Shown here piece by piece: positions 54,132 to 64,000 of a stretch of 64,000 bases of DNA. The stretch is from Candidatus Rifleibacteriota bacterium. GTDB taxonomy: Bacteria; Muiribacteriota; Ozemobacteria; Ozemobacterales; Ozemobacteraceae. The DNA is taken from NCBI GenBank assembly GCA_012517355.1, contig JAAYVD010000120.1:1-64000 (forward strand), read 5' to 3'. Each line of letters begins with the position of its first letter. The stretch's first letter is position 1. The notes beneath the pieces are model-generated. The model did no database searches. It was given only the letters and a program-made list of their open reading frames with translations, and was not told the origin of the DNA. The position numbers were made by a program, and so were the translations under genes.

Positions 54132-54644
54132 ACTGGGCCTCCTGGATGACCGGTCATGCCGGCGTTTGCGGGAACTGCCCGGAGTGTACCCCGTCGGGCG
54201 ACCCCGGCGCAACTGCCCCTTTGCGCCTGTGCCCCTGGTGCCTCCCTGAAAAGATGAGGAGCATTTTCGGCCGCATCAGAATGTGCCGGGGCTCCAATAT
54301 CAGGGGTTGGCAGTCCCATGCAAAACGGTGGCTTTCCTTTGCCCCGCCTGGCCCGGCAAACAGTGTCGAGCATGAACCCAAGGAGATGCCAGGCCTTTGC
54401 ACGGCTGGAACCGGCAACGGCCCCGGGGTGTCCGCCGGTCCATCTTTCCTCAGTCGACGGCATCTGGGGTTGGGGGTCATGCCACCCCCCATCCGCGCTC
54501 CTCCCCCCTCCCTCACTCTCGCCAAACAGCGACCAGAGCAGATCGGAACGTGCCCCGGAGGCGCCGCGCCCCGACCGTTCCGTTGCATCTCCGGAAGGGG
54601 AAAGGTATGATCGGGGACGGAAGACGGTCCCCCAGGAGGAAGGC
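54132..54644. other. Intergenic region between divergent CYTH and kinase genes
   Basis: A 513-base gap. It should contain the promoter for the CYTH-like operon (leftward) and does contain a clear promoter for the kinase (54583-54611). Reading frames through it lack recognisable features. I see no RNA gene or repeat in it. Confidence 0.5.
54583..54611 (+). promoter_or_regulatory. Sigma-70 promoter of the kinase-TPR gene
   Basis: TTGCAT, exactly 17 bases, then TATGAT: a good match to the consensus in both boxes and spacing, about 27 bases before the kinase ATG, with GGAGGAAGG as the ribosome site in between. Confidence 0.65.
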
Positions 54645-57600
54645 ATGGCACCCGCCAACATCGCCCCCGGCATGGTCATCGGCGGCTTCCGGGTGCTGGA
54701 GCCCATCGGCGAGGGCGGAATGGGGGCGGTCTTCAAGGCGCGCGACGAGCAGCTCGACCGCCTCGTGGCACTCAAGATCATGCACCCGGCCCGCGACCCG
54801 GAAGGGGCCCGGGCCCGCTTCCAGCGAGAGGCGGCGGCCCTGGCCCGGCTCGACCACCCGGCCATCGTCGGCATCTATTCCTTCGGCGAGTATGACGGAC
54901 GACCGTTTTTCGCCATGGAGTTCATCGATGGCGGCGCCCTCAAGAGTTTTCTGGGGAAGGCCCGCATCGTCGCCGGGGGAACCTACGACCTCGGCGAACT
55001 GCGCGCCACCGGCTATCTCGCCCCGCCCGACCCCGAGCTTCCCTACTTTCTGCGCGATCCCGACGGCAACCCCCTGGCCGACGACGGATACCTGCCCCGC
55101 GTCGCCGCCCTGGGCGCGGAGCTGGCCGACGCCCTGGCCGCGGCCCACGCCCGGAACCTGATCCATCGCGACATCAAGCCCTCCAACATCCTGATCGGCC
55201 GCGACGGCCGCGCCCGCCTGGTCGACTTCGGCCTGGCGCGTCCCGAGGGCGAGGCCGACCTGACCGCCAGCCACCAGTTCCTCGGAACCCTCTCCTACGC
55301 CGCACCCGAACAGTTCATGGGCCGGCGCGCCCGCATCACCCACGCGGCCGACCTCTACAGCCTCGGCGTGGTGCTGTTCGAACTGGCCACCCTGACCCAC
55401 CCCGTGACCGGGGACGATCCCGCCGCCATCATCGCCGCCATCACCCAGGGCGAGGTGCCCGACCCGCGCGGGATCAACCCCGCCATCCCCGGCGGCCTCG
55501 CCGAGGTCATCCGCACCTGCCTGGAAAAGGATCCCGCCCGCCGGTTCAAGACCGGCCAGGAGCTGCGCGAGGCCCTCACCCAGACCGAAAGCCGCGCCAC
55601 CTCCTGGACCAGCGGCCTGCGCGGGTTCTTCTGGCGCCTGTTCCGCCCCGAACCCGCCTCGCCCGCGCCGGCCGCTCCCCCCGGGCCTGCCAACCACGAA
55701 GAGCCGGCGGGCAACCCGCCCGCGCCTGCCTTTCCCTCGGCCGTCGGGCCTTCGTCCTTCGGCGACCGCCAAGGACAACCGGCGGCGCCTGACTCGTCCC
55801 CGCCGCCCGCCGTAGGTGCCGCCGCCGGCCGGCCCGCTCCCCCGCCGGCCCCGGCCTCATCCCCTCACGTCATTTCCGCTGCCACCGGAAATGGGAACGG
55901 TCCCGCGCGGGCCCCGGCGTCCTCCCTTCCCGCCGCCCCCGCCTGGCCATCACCCCAGCCGCCCCCGCCCCATCTGCCGCCCGGGGAGCCGCGCCTGGCC
56001 GAGGCCCACCGCACCGCCGAGGGCCTGGTGGCCGAGGCCCGCGACCTCTTCCTGCGCCAGTTCGCCTTCTTTCCCGCCATCGACAAGCTCCATCAGGCGC
56101 TCGATCTCGACCCCGGCAGCGCCGACGCCCTGTTCCTGCTGCGCCTGGCCATGAACTCGGTGGGCGACCACTCCCCCCTGGCCGCCCGCACCGAAGCCGC
56201 CGCCCGCCTCGCTCCCGACCGGCCCGACCGCGAGCGGCGCAAGTTCGATCTCACCCGCACCATCTGGGAACAGCGCGACTACCGCGCGGGCGCCCAGGCC
56301 GCCTTCACCTACGGACAACTGTTTCCCGACGACCCCGACGTGCTGCTGGCCGAGGGGTTCTGCACCATGATGCTCGGCGACCTCGACCGGGCCCGCCAAC
56401 TGGCCACCGCCATGACCGGCGCCGCCCCCGAGAACAACCTCGCCGCCATCTTCCTCAGCGAGTGCCACGAGACCGCTCTCGACTTCGCCACCGCCCTCGA
56501 CATCCTCGCCGCCCGCATCCGCCTGTTTCCCGGCGTCACCAACCTCCACCTGAAATATGTGCTGGTCCTGTTCATCACCGGCCGCCTGACCGAGGCCGAG
56601 GAACAGATCCGCCTCGTGCTGCAGCAGGACCCCACCCACGCGTTCATGGTCTTCGCCCGCGCCCGCCTCCACGTCCACCGCGACCGCTGGGCCCTTGCCG
56701 CCGAGGATTTCCGGAAGGTGGCCGGCATGGCGGGGAACGACCGCCTCCGCGCCTTCTCCTACTACTTCCTCGCCCGCCTCCAGGCCGCCCGCGGCCAGCC
56801 CGCCGCCGCCGCGAAATATCTCGCCCTGGCCCAGGCCGGGGTCCAGGGCAGCTCCCTGTTCTCGCTGGAAGAGGCCCGCACCCGCATCGAGGGCCTCGAC
56901 CTGGGCGGGCTGCTGGCCGAACTGCCCCCGCGCGCCTGGCACCCGCACGCCCTGCGCTACGCCCGCGAAGTCTGCTTCGAAACCCTGAACCCCCGCAGCT
57001 ACACCGTGGGCAACTTCGGCCGCACCACGATCTTCGAAATGGGCCCCGATGCCGCCGTCACCCCCAGTTTCCTGTTCGGGAACTTCCTGTTCGATTCCGC
57101 CCAGGAGCGCCTGACCCAGATCTGGTTGCCCGCCGTGCCCGCCTCGCCCCTCGTCGATGCCGCCGGCAACATCCTCCCCGTCGAGTTCAAGCCCCTCTCC
57201 GGAACCTGCCCGCAGATCGGCCCGGCACCCTCTGTCCCGACCGACCCGCGGCCGTCCGTTCTCCCCCACCAGCACGGCGGGCCGCGTGCCACCGGCGGTT
57301 CACCGGACCCCAGGGCGCCGACCGCCCCCGGCCACGCCCCGGACGCCCGGCGGGGTGGGGTGGGGGGCTTTCTGGCCACCGTCACCTTCGCCGAGCCCTG
57401 GCAGGGCGGCACCGCCCAGTTCATCCATGCCTCCGGCGAACCCGCCCCGGGGGACGCCGCCTTCACGCCCGCCGGCCTCGCCCTGCCCGGATGGCCCCTG
57501 GCCGCCGCCCGGCACCAGGCCATCCTGGTGGTCGTGCCTCGCTCTCTCGGCCCGGCCCGCTTCGACGAACCCCCCGACGAGCAGATCGACCTGCCCGACC

Positions 57601-57683
57601 AGACCGTCTGGGTCTGGTTCCGCTTCCTGTTCGCCGGCCAGACCCTCCCCCTCCGCCTGTTCCTGACCACCCGAAATCCGTGA
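54645..57683 (+). CDS. Serine/threonine protein kinase with TPR repeats
   Basis: A 1012-residue cytoplasmic protein. The N-terminal Hanks-type kinase has IGEGGMGAVFKARD (P-loop, 21-34), VALKIM (Lys44), LIHRDIKPSNILI (catalytic Asp176), DFGLA (194-198) and SYAAPEQF. A ~45-residue insertion (about 105-150) lies before the catalytic loop. A Pro/Ala-rich linker (~345-445) leads to TPR-like helices (~450-770: EARDLFLRQFAFFPAIDKLHQAL; GRLTEAEEQIRLVLQQDPTH). The C-terminal domain (TVGNFGRTTIFEMGPDAAVTPSF; GGFLATVTFAEPWQGGTAQF) is beta-rich and unknown, with a Pro-rich insert at ~855-905. Confidence 0.85.
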   Translation: MAPANIAPGMVIGGFRVLEPIGEGGMGAVFKARDEQLDRLVALKIMHPARDPEGARARFQREAAALARLDHPAIVGIYSFGEYDGRPFFAMEFIDGGALKSFLGKARIVAGGTYDLGELRATGYLAPPDPELPYFLRDPDGNPLADDGYLPRVAALGAELADALAAAHARNLIHRDIKPSNILIGRDGRARLVDFGLARPEGEADLTASHQFLGTLSYAAPEQFMGRRARITHAADLYSLGVVLFELATLTHPVTGDDPAAIIAAITQGEVPDPRGINPAIPGGLAEVIRTCLEKDPARRFKTGQELREALTQTESRATSWTSGLRGFFWRLFRPEPASPAPAAPPGPANHEEPAGNPPAPAFPSAVGPSSFGDRQGQPAAPDSSPPPAVGAAAGRPAPPPAPASSPHVISAATGNGNGPARAPASSLPAAPAWPSPQPPPPHLPPGEPRLAEAHRTAEGLVAEARDLFLRQFAFFPAIDKLHQALDLDPGSADALFLLRLAMNSVGDHSPLAARTEAAARLAPDRPDRERRKFDLTRTIWEQRDYRAGAQAAFTYGQLFPDDPDVLLAEGFCTMMLGDLDRARQLATAMTGAAPENNLAAIFLSECHETALDFATALDILAARIRLFPGVTNLHLKYVLVLFITGRLTEAEEQIRLVLQQDPTHAFMVFARARLHVHRDRWALAAEDFRKVAGMAGNDRLRAFSYYFLARLQAARGQPAAAAKYLALAQAGVQGSSLFSLEEARTRIEGLDLGGLLAELPPRAWHPHALRYAREVCFETLNPRSYTVGNFGRTTIFEMGPDAAVTPSFLFGNFLFDSAQERLTQIWLPAVPASPLVDAAGNILPVEFKPLSGTCPQIGPAPSVPTDPRPSVLPHQHGGPRATGGSPDPRAPTAPGHAPDARRGGVGGFLATVTFAEPWQGGTAQFIHASGEPAPGDAAFTPAGLALPGWPLAAARHQAILVVVPRSLGPARFDEPPDEQIDLPDQTVWVWFRFLFAGQTLPLRLFLTTRNP

Positions 57684-57886: not shown

Positions 57887-60800
57887 ATGGTGGAACCGAT
57901 TCCGGCACCGATCCCCCGTCGGTCGCGCTTCGCCGGCCTGCTGCCCGCGCTGCTGACCCTGATCCCCCTGCTCATTCTCGGAGCGCACATCGGGGAACAG
58001 CGGGAAAAGGCCGGGGAACGCCAGCGCCGGAACTGGCTGCGCCTCACCGACGGCCCCGCCCGCCGACTGGCCCAGGCCTCCCGCCTGGAATTCTGGCTCG
58101 AGCGCCAGTCAGGGCGGTTCCGCCGCGAGGCCGAACGCCGCCTCGCCGCCGGAGAACCCATGGAAGCCGCCTGCCAGGCCGCCGGGAACCTGGCGGGCCT
58201 GCCGGGCTTGCCCACTCCCGTCCGGTGGGTCGTCTGGTTCCCCGACCCCGCCCTGGAGATGCCGCCCCGGCCCGTGGCCGGACCCACCGTTCCCTGGCTG
58301 TCCCGCCGCCTGGCGGGGGAATTGCTGCACGAGGCCGCCCGCTTCCTGACCGGGCGGCCGGGACGGTTGTCCCCCTCCACCCTCGAGGCACGGCTGAATC
58401 GCGTGTTTGGGTTCGGGGCGACCGAAGGCCTGCTCCGCCCCGACCAGCGCGGTCTGGCCTTCTGGGCGATGGCAGGCGGGATCAGCCGCCTGGCGGTCTG
58501 GGACTGCCTCACCGTCGGTGGCCGGCCACGCGGTGCCGTTCTGACGCTGATCGACCCTGGCGACCACCCCGGGCCGCTCGCCCTGCGCCTGGCCATACGC
58601 CATTGGCGCACCCTGTCCGGCCGGCCGCGCCCGGGAACCTCGATCACCCCCCGCCGGCAGGAAGTCGCTCCCGCCCCCGGCCCGGCCGCCCCAGCCTCGC
58701 CGCCCCCCGCCTGCACCCGGGCCGGTTCCACCTCCTCCAGCCCGCTGGCGGGCTCGTCCCTGCCGCCCGACCGCCCCGATGTCGGAAGGGCTTCCCCTCT
58801 GCCACCCCGGATGGCGGCGCAAAATGGGGGTTTCACGCCCCGCAAAGCGGTCCTCCGGGCTCCGCTGCCGCGGTTCCTGCCCGCCTTCCTCCCCTGGCCT
58901 TCGCCGCCAGACCTCCCCCGGGAGCCCGTGCTGGCGGGCCGGTCCTGCCCGCCCGCCCTGCGGGCCGTCCTGACCATCCAGGCCCGCCGGATGCAGGTGA
59001 CCCCGGGCCGCGCCCCCCCCAGGTATGGGCCTTTCCCCGCCCCGGCCTTTCCCCCGGCCTCCTGGAACGCCTATCCCCGCTCGGGAAAAATCCGCCTGGA
59101 GGGACTCCGGTTCGGCGAGGTCCTCGACCTCGGCCAGGACGCGGTCTGGTGGGGCCGTTTCGTCCTCCTCGACGCCAACACCGGCCATGTCGGGATGGTG
59201 GTCGGCCGTCGCCCCGCCCTCCCCGCCACCCCCGACCGGCTGGCGCTTTTCATCCTGGCCAGCCTGTGGCTGTTCGCCTGGGCCCCCGCCCTTGGCCGCC
59301 CCGGCTCGGCCTCCAACGCCACCGGTGGCGGAATCCGCCGCGAACTGGTCGGATGGTTCCTTGGCCTGGCGGCCATCCCCCTCGCCCTGGGAACGACCTC
59401 CGCCTTCCGGTTCCTCGACGACCTGCGGGACAACCTCCTGGCCGGGGCCCGGCAGTCCCTCGAGGAGCGGGTGACCACCCTCGAGAACCAGGCGGCCGAA
59501 CTGGCCGCCCGCCCTGCCGCCACCCTGATCCACCTCAGTCGCCAGGCCTGGGTGGGCCCGGTCCTCCAGGCCTGGCAACTGGCTTCGGGCCCGGCTTCGA
59601 CGGGGAGCACCCCGCTCGACCGCCTGTGGTCGGAGGCCACCGCGGCGGGCGTCCCCCTCACCTCCCTGCAAATCGTCGGCCATGGCGGGTTTTCCCGGTT
59701 CCGGGCGGTGTCCGCCCTCTCCCGCGCCGAGCAGACCATCCAATCCCGCCTCGGGGCGGCCATGGGCGGGGTCATGCTGAAACAGATGGCCCCCGACCTG
59801 GCGGCCCGGTTCCCCGCCCAGTCGCGGGATCCCCTGACCGCCTCCTTGCAGGACTCGATCCGCGTGGATGCGTTAAATCAGTATCAAAACGATATCAGCG
59901 GAAATTTCTTTGGCGCCGGCCGCAAAAAAGTTCGCGAGGACCACGTGGTCGTCCGCATCGACGGCCTGGCCTGGTTCGTCCTGGTCTACTGCTGGGATCC
60001 CCGCCAGGAAAGCCGCCGGGCCCTGCGGGAATCGCTCCTGGCCAGGGCCGGCGCGGAAGGGCCGGAACAGGCGTTCGACGCCGACTCCGACGGGGGGCTG
60101 GTCGCCGTGGAGGTTTCCCGCGGCGGGGGTTGGGGCGGGGAAGGGGAGGACGCTCTGGCCGCAGTGGCCCGGATGGCCCGCGCGGGGCCGTTCGCCTGGA
60201 TCCGGGAAGGCGGGCGGGCCGCTCCTTCCCCCGCTCCGGTCACCAGCCCCCACGTTCCTGCGGCCTCCGCTTCTTCCTCCAGCCTTCTCGTCCTGGCCCG
60301 GCCGGCGGTGCGATTGCGGGGTTTCGTGCTGGCCGCCGCCATGCGCCTGGCCCCCCTCGAGGCCCGCCTGGCCCGCGAGCGGACGTTGATCTGGGGCACC
60401 CTGCTGGGGATGGTCCTGCTGGTGACGGTCGGCGGCGCCCTGCTGTCGGGATGGCTGGCCTCGCCGCTGGTGCAGATCACCGCCGCCCTGCGGGAGGTCA
60501 AGGAGGGGCGTCGCCGGTTCGAGGTGGCGGGGGAACGCCACGACCAGCTGGGAGAGGCGGTGGGCACCCTGCAGCGCATGGTGGGCTGGCTGCGGGAGCG
60601 GGAGACCATCGGCCGCTTCGTTTCCAGTCACGTTCTCGAGATCGTCAGCCAGGGTGACGAGACGGGGGCCGCCCAGGGGCGCACCCGCGAGGTGGTCCTG
60701 CTGGTGTCCGACATCCGTTCGTTCACCACGCTGTCGGAGCGCCACCCCCCAAAGGACATCTTCCAGTTGCTGAACGACCATCTCGGGGCGATGACCCCCG

Positions 60801-63800
60801 CCATCCAGGCCCACGGCGGGACCATCGACCGGTTCATCGGCGACGCCATCCAGGCCGCCTTTTTCCCTGCCGACGGAGACCACGCCGCCACGCGCGCCGC
60901 CCGGGCCGCCTGCGCCATGATGCGCGAGCACCGCCGGCTGAACGCCGGGCGCCTCGCCCGCGGCACCTTCCCCTACGCCATCGGGATCGGCCTGGCCCGG
61001 GGCGAAGCGATCACCGGCGTCCTCGGCGACCCGGACGTGCGACTCGACTTCACCGTCCTGGGCGAACCCTTGCGGGAGGCCCACGAACGCGAGGCGGCAT
61101 CCAAAGACGCCACCACCACCTTCATCATCGCCGGGCCCGAACTGCTGCCCTTCCTCGACGGCGACATGGAAACCCTGCCCGTTCCGGGGCATCCGGGATT
61201 GGTCGAGATCCTCCACCCCTCCCTTCCGCCTCTGCCAACGCCGGCCTCCGACCCCCAGGCTCCCCCTTCCCCTGACGGTGCCCCTTCCGGGCCAGGGCAG
61301 CCGTTCCCCTCCCACCATCCAGCGGTCACATCGGGAAGAGACCCGTCACCCCCCGCCTCCGGAACCCGGATACCGGACGCCCACCCCGCGGCTGTCGCCC
61401 CCCCAGTGGCAACCGCGTCCTCTGCCTCCCCTCCTGCTTCCCCCGCTGCCTCTGCCTCCCATCCCGCTTTCCCCGCTGCCGTGGCCGACGCTTCCGCGGT
61501 CCCCGCCACTTCTTCCACCACCCCTCTCACCGGCCCCGCCCTCGCGGCTGCCGCCCCCCCAGTGGCAACCGCGTCCTCTGCCTCCCCTCCTGCTTCCCCC
61601 GCTGCATCTGGCGCTGTCCCTCCGCCGTTGCCCGGGGGCGCCCCGATCCGGATCGGCGGCTGGCTTCCTGTTCTGGCCACGGTCCTCCTGTGGATTTTCG
61701 CCCTGGCCCTGCTGTGGTGGCAGGTCGGCCTTTTGGCGGGCCGGTCGGCCGAAAATGAGCAGGCCCTCCTCGAGCGGCGGCTTCGCGAGGAGGCCGGCCA
61801 GTTGGCCGAGATCTATACCCCCGAACGCGCCTCGACCATGGTCGCCGAGGCTGAACTGGACCGCCTGGCCGAGGAGGTGGCGGCCGTCCCCGCCGCCGCC
61901 CGCCCCGCCTTCCTGTCCGGGCCGGTGGCGGAACGGTTGGAGGGCTTGGCCGGCCGGCTGGGGGCCTCCGCCTGGTTCCTGATGGAAAACGTCCGCCCCG
62001 ATCTTCCCCCCACCTCCGACCGGCCATTTTCCACCGCGATCCTGGCCGAGGGCGGGCCGGCGGTCGCCGCCCGTCGCCGGTTCGCCCAGGTGTTGTTCGC
62101 CTCTTTCCGGGACGTCATGGGTGGGTTGCCGTCTGCCCCCCTTCTCGAAAAAGTCCGCGAGGGTTTGTTCCAGCCGGAAATCCAGCCGGGACAATGTCTG
62201 GAGGACCTCTTCTGCGAGGGCCTCGGGGCCTGGCTGGTCATCGGCAATCCCCCCGCCAGGCGGTTCCTCTGGCAACCCCTCATCTGCCTGGCTTCGCACT
62301 CCCGCATTTTCCCCGGCCACTTGTACTGGGACGAATTCCCCGCTGCCATCCTCCTTTTTCGCGAAGGAACCGCGGTCACCCCCGAAGAAGGCCTCTCGGC
62401 GCTGGAACAGGCCTTCGCCGCCCGCGGGTTGAGCATCGGCTTCGAACCGCCCGCCGCGAAGGCGGAAGGCCCCCTTGGCCCCCAAGGATGGCCCGGCGGT
62501 CCGCTCGTTCCGCCCCGGACCGGGCCGCCCTCCTATACCCCGGCCGAAAACGACCCCGGCGGCGCCTTTCCCGGTGCCTCGACCGTGAACAGCCGTGGCG
62601 GCGATTCCCCCAGGGCCTCGCCGGTGAACCGCCCTGATGACCCTTCTCTCCATCTCGCCGCGCGGCTTCCCGATGGCCCGGAGGATCGCCTCAATGGCCA
62701 TCCTGCCCATCCCCTCCAACTTCCCAACGACGGCCTGGTCGTCCGGACCGGCCGCCTTCCCGACGGGACGGGGTTTCGGCTCGCCGGGAAGGTGCCCCTC
62801 CCAGCCGATCGGGTCGGGTACGCCTTTCTGGCTACCCTGACTGGTTTGGCCCGAGGCTGGGGGTGGTTGGGGGCCGCCCTCCTGACCCTTGCCCTGCTCT
62901 TCCCCCGCACCCGGGTCGGACTCACCCCCCGGCTGGTGGTCGCCTTCCTGGCCATTCTTGCCCCCGCCCTCCTCGTCGGCGCTGCCCTGCTGGAGCGGGC
63001 CGCCATCGAAAAGCACTTCCGCCTCGAACGGGGCTTCCCAACCCTCCTCGCGGCCCGGGTCTCCCATCTGGAAGACAGCCTCCGCGCCCTGGTCGGCGCC
63101 CAGATCCACCTGTTCCGGCGCCGACTGGCCAGCACGGACACCTGGCTCGCCCGCCCCCCCGGCCAAGCCGGCGGTCCCACCTTCGGGGACGGCCTGCAAT
63201 GGCTCTACGAACAGGGAATGGCCGACGGCAGTTCCTTCGTCGTGGTGACCGGCCTGGAACGCGGTGGGGTCCCTGAGGAACGTCCCCTGAACCCTGACCA
63301 GGAAGCCCCCGACGGGGGCCGGAGGTTCTTTGGTGACATGTTCCGCGACGTCCTCGAGCGCCTTCCCGCCGCGGCTGGGCCCGCCGCTGCCCCGGCGGGG
63401 GCCGATCCGGGGGCCGATCCGGGGGCCGTCCTGTCCGGGGCCAAGGCCGAGGAGATCCGTGACGTCCTGCTGGTGCTGATGGATGCCGGCGAACTGGCCG
63501 GTTTCGTCGGGGCGCCGGTCGTGGCCGCCCGCCAGCGCACGGGGAACTTTTCCCAGCACTCCTATCGGGCCTTCCTGGGCCCCCCGCATGATCGCCGGGG
63601 CGTGATTCTGACCCATTGGATCGCCAAGGCCGCCGTCTGGCAATTGTTCAACCACCTGTGCGAGCAGGGCGTGGCCGATGTCCGCCTCGCCCGGCGCGAC
63701 CATCCCTCGATGGTCCTCGAACCCCCCTTCTTCTTCCCCTACGGGCCCCGCGATGACCTGCGGACGGTCTGGGCCGAACATCAGAGGATCGGGAACTCCC

Positions 63801-64000
63801 CCGAGCGTTGGGCCTCCTGGCTGTCTACCCGCGGCGAAGGGAAGGTCCTGGCCCGAACCGGCGCGGGGGCTTCCGCTACCCTCCTGCTGGCTTACACCGG
63901 CGAAGAAGCCACCGACCTCGTCTTGCTGGCGGAAGAACCGGTGGGCCGCCACCTCGCCGCCCACTGGCTCGCCATCCGCGGCCACCGGTGGTTGCTGGCC
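57887..64000 (+). CDS. Giant multi-pass sensor protein with class III nucleotide cyclase domain (continues past window end)
   Basis: A single frame is open from the ATG at 57887 to the last base (2038 codons). Module 1: TM (AGLLPALLTLIPLLILGAHI), sensor region, a TM pair around 470-520 (LALFILASLWLFAWAP; LVGWFLGLAAIPLALG), a second sensor region, TM plus HAMP (LIWGTLLGMVLLVTVGGALL; PLVQITAALREVKEGRRRFE), then the cyclase (~935-1110: LVSDIRSFTTLS and RFIGDAIQAAF with both metal Asp). A ~130-residue Pro/Ser/Ala linker leads to module 2 with the same plan: TM at ~1258-1280, TM pair at ~1655-1700, second sensor. A second catalytic domain probably follows beyond the window. Confidence 0.8.
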   Translation, partial: MVEPIPAPIPRRSRFAGLLPALLTLIPLLILGAHIGEQREKAGERQRRNWLRLTDGPARRLAQASRLEFWLERQSGRFRREAERRLAAGEPMEAACQAAGNLAGLPGLPTPVRWVVWFPDPALEMPPRPVAGPTVPWLSRRLAGELLHEAARFLTGRPGRLSPSTLEARLNRVFGFGATEGLLRPDQRGLAFWAMAGGISRLAVWDCLTVGGRPRGAVLTLIDPGDHPGPLALRLAIRHWRTLSGRPRPGTSITPRRQEVAPAPGPAAPASPPPACTRAGSTSSSPLAGSSLPPDRPDVGRASPLPPRMAAQNGGFTPRKAVLRAPLPRFLPAFLPWPSPPDLPREPVLAGRSCPPALRAVLTIQARRMQVTPGRAPPRYGPFPAPAFPPASWNAYPRSGKIRLEGLRFGEVLDLGQDAVWWGRFVLLDANTGHVGMVVGRRPALPATPDRLALFILASLWLFAWAPALGRPGSASNATGGGIRRELVGWFLGLAAIPLALGTTSAFRFLDDLRDNLLAGARQSLEERVTTLENQAAELAARPAATLIHLSRQAWVGPVLQAWQLASGPASTGSTPLDRLWSEATAAGVPLTSLQIVGHGGFSRFRAVSALSRAEQTIQSRLGAAMGGVMLKQMAPDLAARFPAQSRDPLTASLQDSIRVDALNQYQNDISGNFFGAGRKKVREDHVVVRIDGLAWFVLVYCWDPRQESRRALRESLLARAGAEGPEQAFDADSDGGLVAVEVSRGGGWGGEGEDALAAVARMARAGPFAWIREGGRAAPSPAPVTSPHVPAASASSSSLLVLARPAVRLRGFVLAAAMRLAPLEARLARERTLIWGTLLGMVLLVTVGGALLSGWLASPLVQITAALREVKEGRRRFEVAGERHDQLGEAVGTLQRMVGWLRERETIGRFVSSHVLEIVSQGDETGAAQGRTREVVLLVSDIRSFTTLSERHPPKDIFQLLNDHLGAMTPAIQAHGGTIDRFIGDAIQAAFFPADGDHAATRAARAACAMMREHRRLNAGRLARGTFPYAIGIGLARGEAITGVLGDPDVRLDFTVLGEPLREAHEREAASKDATTTFIIAGPELLPFLDGDMETLPVPGHPGLVEILHPSLPPLPTPASDPQAPPSPDGAPSGPGQPFPSHHPAVTSGRDPSPPASGTRIPDAHPAAVAPPVATASSASPPASPAASASHPAFPAAVADASAVPATSSTTPLTGPALAAAAPPVATASSASPPASPAASGAVPPPLPGGAPIRIGGWLPVLATVLLWIFALALLWWQVGLLAGRSAENEQALLERRLREEAGQLAEIYTPERASTMVAEAELDRLAEEVAAVPAAARPAFLSGPVAERLEGLAGRLGASAWFLMENVRPDLPPTSDRPFSTAILAEGGPAVAARRRFAQVLFASFRDVMGGLPSAPLLEKVREGLFQPEIQPGQCLEDLFCEGLGAWLVIGNPPARRFLWQPLICLASHSRIFPGHLYWDEFPAAILLFREGTAVTPEEGLSALEQAFAARGLSIGFEPPAAKAEGPLGPQGWPGGPLVPPRTGPPSYTPAENDPGGAFPGASTVNSRGGDSPRASPVNRPDDPSLHLAARLPDGPEDRLNGHPAHPLQLPNDGLVVRTGRLPDGTGFRLAGKVPLPADRVGYAFLATLTGLARGWGWLGAALLTLALLFPRTRVGLTPRLVVAFLAILAPALLVGAALLERAAIEKHFRLERGFPTLLAARVSHLEDSLRALVGAQIHLFRRRLASTDTWLARPPGQAGGPTFGDGLQWLYEQGMADGSSFVVVTGLERGGVPEERPLNPDQEAPDGGRRFFGDMFRDVLERLPAAAGPAAAPAGADPGADPGAVLSGAKAEEIRDVLLVLMDAGELAGFVGAPVVAARQRTGNFSQHSYRAFLGPPHDRRGVILTHWIAKAAVWQLFNHLCEQGVADVRLARRDHPSMVLEPPFFFPYGPRDDLRTVWAEHQRIGNSPERWASWLSTRGEGKVLARTGAGASATLLLAYTGEEATDLVLLAEEPVGRHLAAHWLAIRGHRWLLA
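58768..58855 (+). repeat. Dispersed repeat, family 2, copy 7, inside the cyclase gene
   Basis: CGACCGCCCCGATGTCGGAA, TGCCACCCCGGATGGCGGCG and GGGGGTTTCACGCC match the family with some changes. It is read in frame as part of the first sensor region (about residues 294-323), in a different frame from the copies inside the PilX-like gene. Confidence 0.65.

Follow-up and report, generated by a model that had tools for sequence, protein, structure and literature searches.

The mammalian transmembrane adenylyl cyclases (tmACs; ADCY1-9, class IIIa, with structures 1azs and 8sl4) each combine, within one chain, a pair of membrane modules with a pair of catalytic domains. The metals are held by the first catalytic domain, C1, the base-binding and transition-state residues are supplied by the second, C2, and the pair forms one active and one degenerate site. 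The scheme of seven catalytic residues, together with its division between the two domains of the membrane adenylyl cyclases, has been described previously (PMC6592433). The soluble adenylyl cyclase ADCY10 (4oya, 4clf) is likewise a tandem, in this case of class IIIb domains that lie next to each other in a cytosolic protein with neither HAMP nor TM segments. The guanylate cyclases of apicomplexans and ciliates, such as TgATPaseP-GC (PMC6592433), are also pseudoheterodimers, built from a pair of cyclase domains within a single very large membrane protein, but these eukaryotic enzymes are specific for GTP, have the roles of the two domains in inverted order and are fused to a P4-ATPase. The solitary class IIIb enzymes of bacteria (Pseudomonas aeruginosa CyaB, 3r5g; CyaC, 1wc1; Cya2, 2w01) are homodimers that have the full set of residues and two equivalent sites, and are neither fused nor complementary. 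Mycobacterium tuberculosis Rv1625c/Cya is a homodimeric, class IIIa membrane cyclase with one module of six TM helices, and is the kind of protein proposed as progenitor of a fused enzyme. According to a review from 2022, no fused dimeric class III adenylyl cyclase is known from bacteria, and what is gained by fusion is left there as an open question (PMC9552081). A search of the open-access literature yielded no bacterial counterexample, and the one paper it turned up that names Riflebacteria together with a cyclase is on magnetosomes.

The product of the gene described here is very probably an adenylyl cyclase receptor of class IIIb, a pseudoheterodimer in one chain whose complementary domains would pair to form one competent site, and its family would have arisen within the phylum independently of the eukaryotes. 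As in the tmACs, both catalytic domains and both membrane modules belong to one chain, the metal, base and transition-state residues are assigned in the same way, and one active and one degenerate site are predicted. Unlike the tmACs it is bacterial and, on the reading preferred here, of separate origin; it is about twice as long, carries the class IIIb Thr in place of Asp, and has four TM helices, two sensor regions and a HAMP domain in each module. Whereas the domains of ADCY10 are adjacent, those of the Riflebacteria protein are separated by some 1000 residues of membrane sensor. With CyaB, CyaC and Cya2, its nearest solved sequences, it shares the catalytic fold.

Layout of the fused gene

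The window, which is the whole stretch of DNA analysed (64,000 nucleotides), comprises positions 1-64000 of contig C16 in a genome of 7.1 Mb and 184 contigs. The genome most likely belongs to the Riflebacteria, and the closest match with a name came from Candidatus Ozemobacter sibiricus. A frame on its + strand that begins at 57887, a start based on the ORF caller and on an N-terminal TM helix, stays open to 64000 and is carried on by the same contig to a stop at 64856-64858. The product of the frame 57887-64858 is 2323 aa long, which bears out the claim of a preliminary description of this DNA that a single polypeptide exceeds 2000 residues. With Pfam the protein contains two HAMP and two Guanylate_cyc domains (E 3.5e-16 and 1e-20, respectively, both figures being for the whole protein), and thereby has the domains of a class III cyclase. 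No Pfam family was matched by its sensor regions.

Hydropathy gives an order of one TM helix, about 400 residues, a TM pair, about 330 residues and then TM-HAMP-cyclase, followed by a Pro/Ala-rich linker, after which the order is repeated. In module 1, TM1 (57929-57985) leads into a first sensor region that is predicted to be extracytoplasmic (57986-59239), a TM pair whose second helix is weak, with a score of 1.58 (59240-59407), a second sensor region (59408-60385) and the last TM helix with HAMP 1 (60386-60583, placed by hydropathy and Pfam). The C1-like cyclase domain 1 was positioned by alignment of the cyclase domains at 60680-61246, and a sequence rich in Pro, Ala and Ser (61274-61651) joins the modules. 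Module 2 starts with its own TM1 (61658-61714) and continues with a first sensor region (61715-62835), a TM pair whose start is approximate and whose strong helix lies at 62933-62989 (62836-62989) and a second sensor region (62990-63985), both sensor regions being delimited by hydropathy and profile comparison. Only the first bases of the last TM helix (63986-64000) fall within the window, the full helix occupying 63986-64042 of the contig (hydropathy and Pfam). Past the window end stand HAMP 2 (contig 64037-64189, from Pfam) and the C2-like cyclase domain 2 (contig 64280-64834, from Pfam and alignment). The complete first module, the linker and the second module of like order had all been recognised from the window alone, and the second TM-HAMP-catalytic part that was expected beyond 64000 is present once the contig is read further, as had been suggested, since the frame ends only after the second HAMP and cyclase domains. 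By hydropathy the paralogues have the same TM order as the window protein; in the latter, each TM pair includes one weak helix. With about four TM helices per module plus HAMP, the layout falls short of the six TM helices per module of a tmAC.

The two halves also correspond to each other in sequence. Profiles of the N-module and C-module, built from 19 fused proteins each, match with a probability of 99.9% and an E value of 2.4e-34 over 728 collinear columns, the collinear self-similarity that the earlier reading had proposed to look for, although pairwise BLASTP of module 1 against module 2 of the window protein gave nothing significant. By profile comparison, hence, the two halves of the fused protein are homologous along their whole length, and the duplication is old, because the two window modules no longer match significantly in a pairwise search. 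Chance can be set aside as the source of the fused architecture, since 11 more such proteins occur in the same genome and others in further genera of the family. It is true that GC-rich DNA, such as that of this genome, yields long spurious frames on both strands, but an artefact of assembly or frame that joins two genes has next to no probability when 43 fused frames from many independent assemblies conserve the domain order.

Upstream of the cyclase gene lies a gene for a Ser/Thr kinase (54318-57683), which was considered as a partner and dropped, as no equivalent was found in the stretches of limited length fetched around other cyclase genes.

Division of the catalytic residues

The catalytic positions were taken from alignments of all the cyclase domains. 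Cyclase 1 keeps both metal-binding aspartates, Asp942 (60710-60712) and Asp986 (60842-60844), whilst its base-binding Lys is replaced by Arg982, its transition-state Asn by Arg1063 and its transition-state Arg by Glu1067, and the KGK motif is lost. Cyclase 2 has Gly2141 in place of the first metal Asp and retains Lys2181, Asp2185, Thr2252, Asn2259 and Arg2263, together with a KGK motif (2306) near its C-terminal end, the lysine of which we take to be the counterpart of the phosphate-contacting lysine of mammalian C2. The metal aspartates are found on one domain and the Asn and Arg on its partner, with reciprocal loss of each, and neither domain alone is complete: the full set of two metal Asp, base pair, Asn and Arg is obtained only when domains 1 and 2 are combined. 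In this respect the window protein differs from a bacterial homodimeric HAMP receptor cyclase, which has one complete module rather than two incomplete ones. The base-binding Asp is replaced by Thr2252, placing the protein in class IIIb and not in class IIIa with the tmACs.

Going by these aligned positions, the division of residues is the C1/C2 split as in mammalian adenylyl cyclases. A likeness to the mammalian membrane enzymes had been noted in the preliminary description from the two-module chain, and it now extends to the complementary catalytic losses and to the N-to-C order of the roles. The likeness is one of working principle, not of descent, because the protein is of the class IIIb type (Thr for Asp), has four TM helices plus HAMP, and is most closely related to cyclases of the same phylum that are solitary or encoded by split genes.

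Fused, paired and solitary cyclases and their origin

The window genome has 87 cyclase domains, 12 fused proteins (that of the window and the 11 others) and 16 further loci with complementary neighbouring genes. A C1 profile run over 40 genomes of the phylum found fused frames of about 2000-2500 aa across the window's family, and 43 distinct fused frames were counted in loci fetched from at least 10 genera of that family. In their N-domains the first and the second metal Asp are each present in 43/43, and the C1 role is kept in 42/43, L194 being the sole domain with both Asn and Arg at the aligned positions. The C-domains have the Lys in 43/43, Asn and Arg in all 42 that are readable, and loss of a metal site in 43/43 (Me1 in 42, Me2 instead in L236). 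The second metal position of these C2 domains is D in 24, E in 16, G in 2 and N in 1, and the base position is Thr in 41 and Ser in 1, with 1 unread; the KGK motif is present in 41/42 fused C2 domains and absent from 38/42 fused C1 domains. The same C1/C2 split is seen in 33 adjacent gene pairs on the same strand, mostly with overlapping frames, of which 26 have the order C1-C2 and 7 the order C2-C1. Among the 31 solitary cyclases of the window genome, 27-28 keep Asp/Asp/Lys/Asn/Arg, and essentially all readable cyclases from other phyla among the top matches keep the complete set. No fused or C1/C2-type protein was present among the matches listed for 16 genomes of other families of the phylum. 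As read from its sequence, the genome carries dozens of receptors predicted to make cyclic AMP, in two complementary halves that are often within one chain.

Every single domain of this type lacks some essential residues, and several C2 domains lack the second metal Asp as well, so that the giant proteins might be thought of as sensors in which both cyclase domains are dead and serve to bind nucleotides or other cyclases. Decay would, however, strike random positions, whereas the complementary set is conserved almost absolutely across at least 10 genera (C1 Asp/Asp 43/43; C2 Lys 43/43 and Asn/Arg 42/42). Random decay does not produce such losses, which are complementary and are kept in both fused proteins and gene pairs, while the solitary cyclases are mostly complete. 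Moreover, the partners co-diverge: a Mantel test of 28 C1 domains against their C2 partners in one genome gave r 0.62 with 0/10000 permutations; the 16 separate-gene pairs taken by themselves also correlate (0/10000), the signal being weaker with the 12 fused proteins only (20/10000). Dead domains are, on this evidence, a very unlikely explanation, and complementary domains that form a working site are preferred.

The trees are quick maximum-likelihood trees with many open forks, from which the catalytic columns were removed. The C1 domains group in a single clade (SH-aLRT 95), with two odd long-branched domains that share only the residue label falling elsewhere, and the fused C1 domains are nested in a clade of C1-C2 gene-pair domains. 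The fused C2 domains form a clade with those of the ordinary pairs (support 99), and the C2 subgroups mirror those of C1 in the tree. Constraint to a single C2 clade is not rejected and gives a likelihood better by 22, with L049, an orphan, and both of the odd long-branched domains left out. A few members encoded by separate genes (L035, L037) group with the fused proteins and seem to have been split or frameshifted later. A solitary cyclase of the window genome (L046, on C48, 1011 aa) has the complete residue set and the four-TM layout and matches the N-module profile over 520 columns (E 1.7e-8); another, from a different genus (L213, 1043 aa), is likewise solitary and complete. Since both are complete and have a related module, the solitary, paired and fused forms can be arranged as a series within one family, from which we infer that the lineage went independently from solitary homodimer to two-gene heterodimer to one-chain pseudoheterodimer.

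The profile of the first domains, A1, matches the C1 half of soluble AC, of AC5 and 1azs_A, and that of the second domains, A2, the C2 half of soluble AC and AC5 and 1azs_B; for AC9, C1 is the best match of both. This same order of roles from N to C, and the tandem nature of the class IIIb soluble enzyme, would be expected if the family descended from a membrane or soluble adenylyl cyclase taken over from a eukaryote. Such an origin is disfavoured and appears extremely improbable, in that HAMP modules are present, both domains have their nearest solved relatives among the class IIIb enzymes of bacteria, and intermediate forms, split-gene as well as solitary, occur in the same phylum and in the same tree, albeit one whose rows lack eukaryotic sequences.

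It is likely that the whole path proposed for the animal adenylyl cyclases has been replayed here independently. On this reading every stage survives alongside the others within single genomes, and fused proteins have multiplied to a dozen receptors in one of them, where each would bring the inputs of several sensors to one site and leave a degenerate second site free for regulation. The C1/C2 principle itself is known from eukaryotes; what is new, as far as can be tested with a search of other phyla that was not exhaustive, is a bacterial, class IIIb, HAMP-coupled and independently evolved version with surviving intermediates. The family offers dozens of natural fused enzymes and, within the same genome, two-gene heterodimers and solitary relatives of the homodimer type. 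As the fused, paired and solitary forms share a genome, the advantage of fusion becomes testable by direct comparison, and the family also provides a bacterial system in which to study asymmetric cyclase receptors with two inputs and what the degenerate second site does.

Proposed working of the receptor

What the sequences show is the reading frame with its domains, the complementary residues, the homology of the modules, the spread of the family and its tree, and we infer activity, cAMP as the product, pairing within one chain and the sensing of ligands. The two homologous modules, each with the order TM, sensor, TM-TM, sensor, TM, HAMP and cyclase, stand in tandem. Cyclase 1 would take the C1 role by giving the two metal-binding aspartates, and cyclase 2 the C2 role by giving the Lys/Thr that select adenine, the Asn/Arg of the transition state and the lysine of the KGK motif. 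ATP is the predicted substrate because of the Lys/Thr pair at the base positions. The two domains would pair head-to-tail to generate one ATP-cyclising site and one degenerate site, and up to four extracytoplasmic sensor regions may signal through two HAMP domains to that single site. Solitary homodimeric cyclases, adjacent-gene heterodimers and gene fusion would have followed one another within the phylum, apart from the eukaryotic enzymes.

HAMP modules usually function as parallel dimers, which could place the active sites between two fused chains, with the C1 of one chain and the C2 of the other forming a domain-swapped dimer in which fusion only fixes a 1:1 stoichiometry. However, mammalian adenylyl cyclases of the same C1-C2 order pair in cis, and the two HAMP domains of one chain can equally dimerise in cis, making the swapped arrangement rather unlikely and pairing within one chain the favoured one. 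An AlphaFold model of residues 790-1986 of a fused relative (L071; 1197 aa, one chain) has a pLDDT of 53 and a pTM of 0.30, being poor outside the cyclase domains and uninformative on the placement of C1 against C2, whilst the cyclase domains themselves have cyclase folds at fair confidence. Its top fold match is human AC5, with both halves in order over 1232 columns, a match in which the global superposition is meaningless.

In the cell, the resulting cAMP would act on proteins that bind cNMPs. The window genome encodes 24 cNMP-binding domains, which could act as its readers.

Gene clusters and unpaired cyclases

The window's own genome (7.1 Mb) carries 87 class III cyclase domains together with 24 cNMP-binding domains, a very large cyclic nucleotide system. 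Three of its cyclase genes lie side by side (L025, G000:C20:8646-18525) in the order C1-type (the type without the transition-state Asn/Arg), C1-type and C2-type (the type without the first metal Asp), which suggests that one C2 is shared between two C1 subunits. A lone C2-type cyclase (L049, G000:C112:23829-26255) has its first metal Asp replaced by Gly and its catalytic domain placed mid-protein. No C1 partner was found in the 9 kb stretch that covers the gene, and L049 may pair with a C1 that is encoded far away.

Fused genes and departures from the residue rule

In another genome of the phylum, three fused cyclase genes form a direct tandem (L181/L182, G003:C152:13376-32863) and are recent duplicates. 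Two members of the fused clade in the window's genome, L037 (G000:C41:177-6481) and L035 (G000:C87), are each now split over two frames, which in L037 are separated by a 2.4 kb gap, likely through frameshift or decay. The residue rule, by which the first domain loses Asn/Arg and the second the first metal Asp, has exceptions in L194 (8380-14541), whose first domain retains Asn/Arg, and in L236 (694-5235), whose second domain retains the first metal Asp and has Asn at the second metal position. Adjacent cyclase genes also occur in a different family of the phylum (L220, G037:C127; L229, G039:C154). In these pairs one cyclase is complete and its partner is without the second metal residue only (D to G); they group separately, outside the C1 and C2 clades, and perhaps represent an independent start of the division of labour.

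Associated kinases

A serine/threonine kinase with TPR repeats (54318-57683) is encoded immediately upstream of the window's fused cyclase gene, on the same strand; no similar kinase was found near other cyclase genes in the stretches of limited length around them. L044 (G000:C89:4900-8979), a single frame of 1360 aa, combines a complete cyclase domain with a region that resembles serine/threonine kinases.
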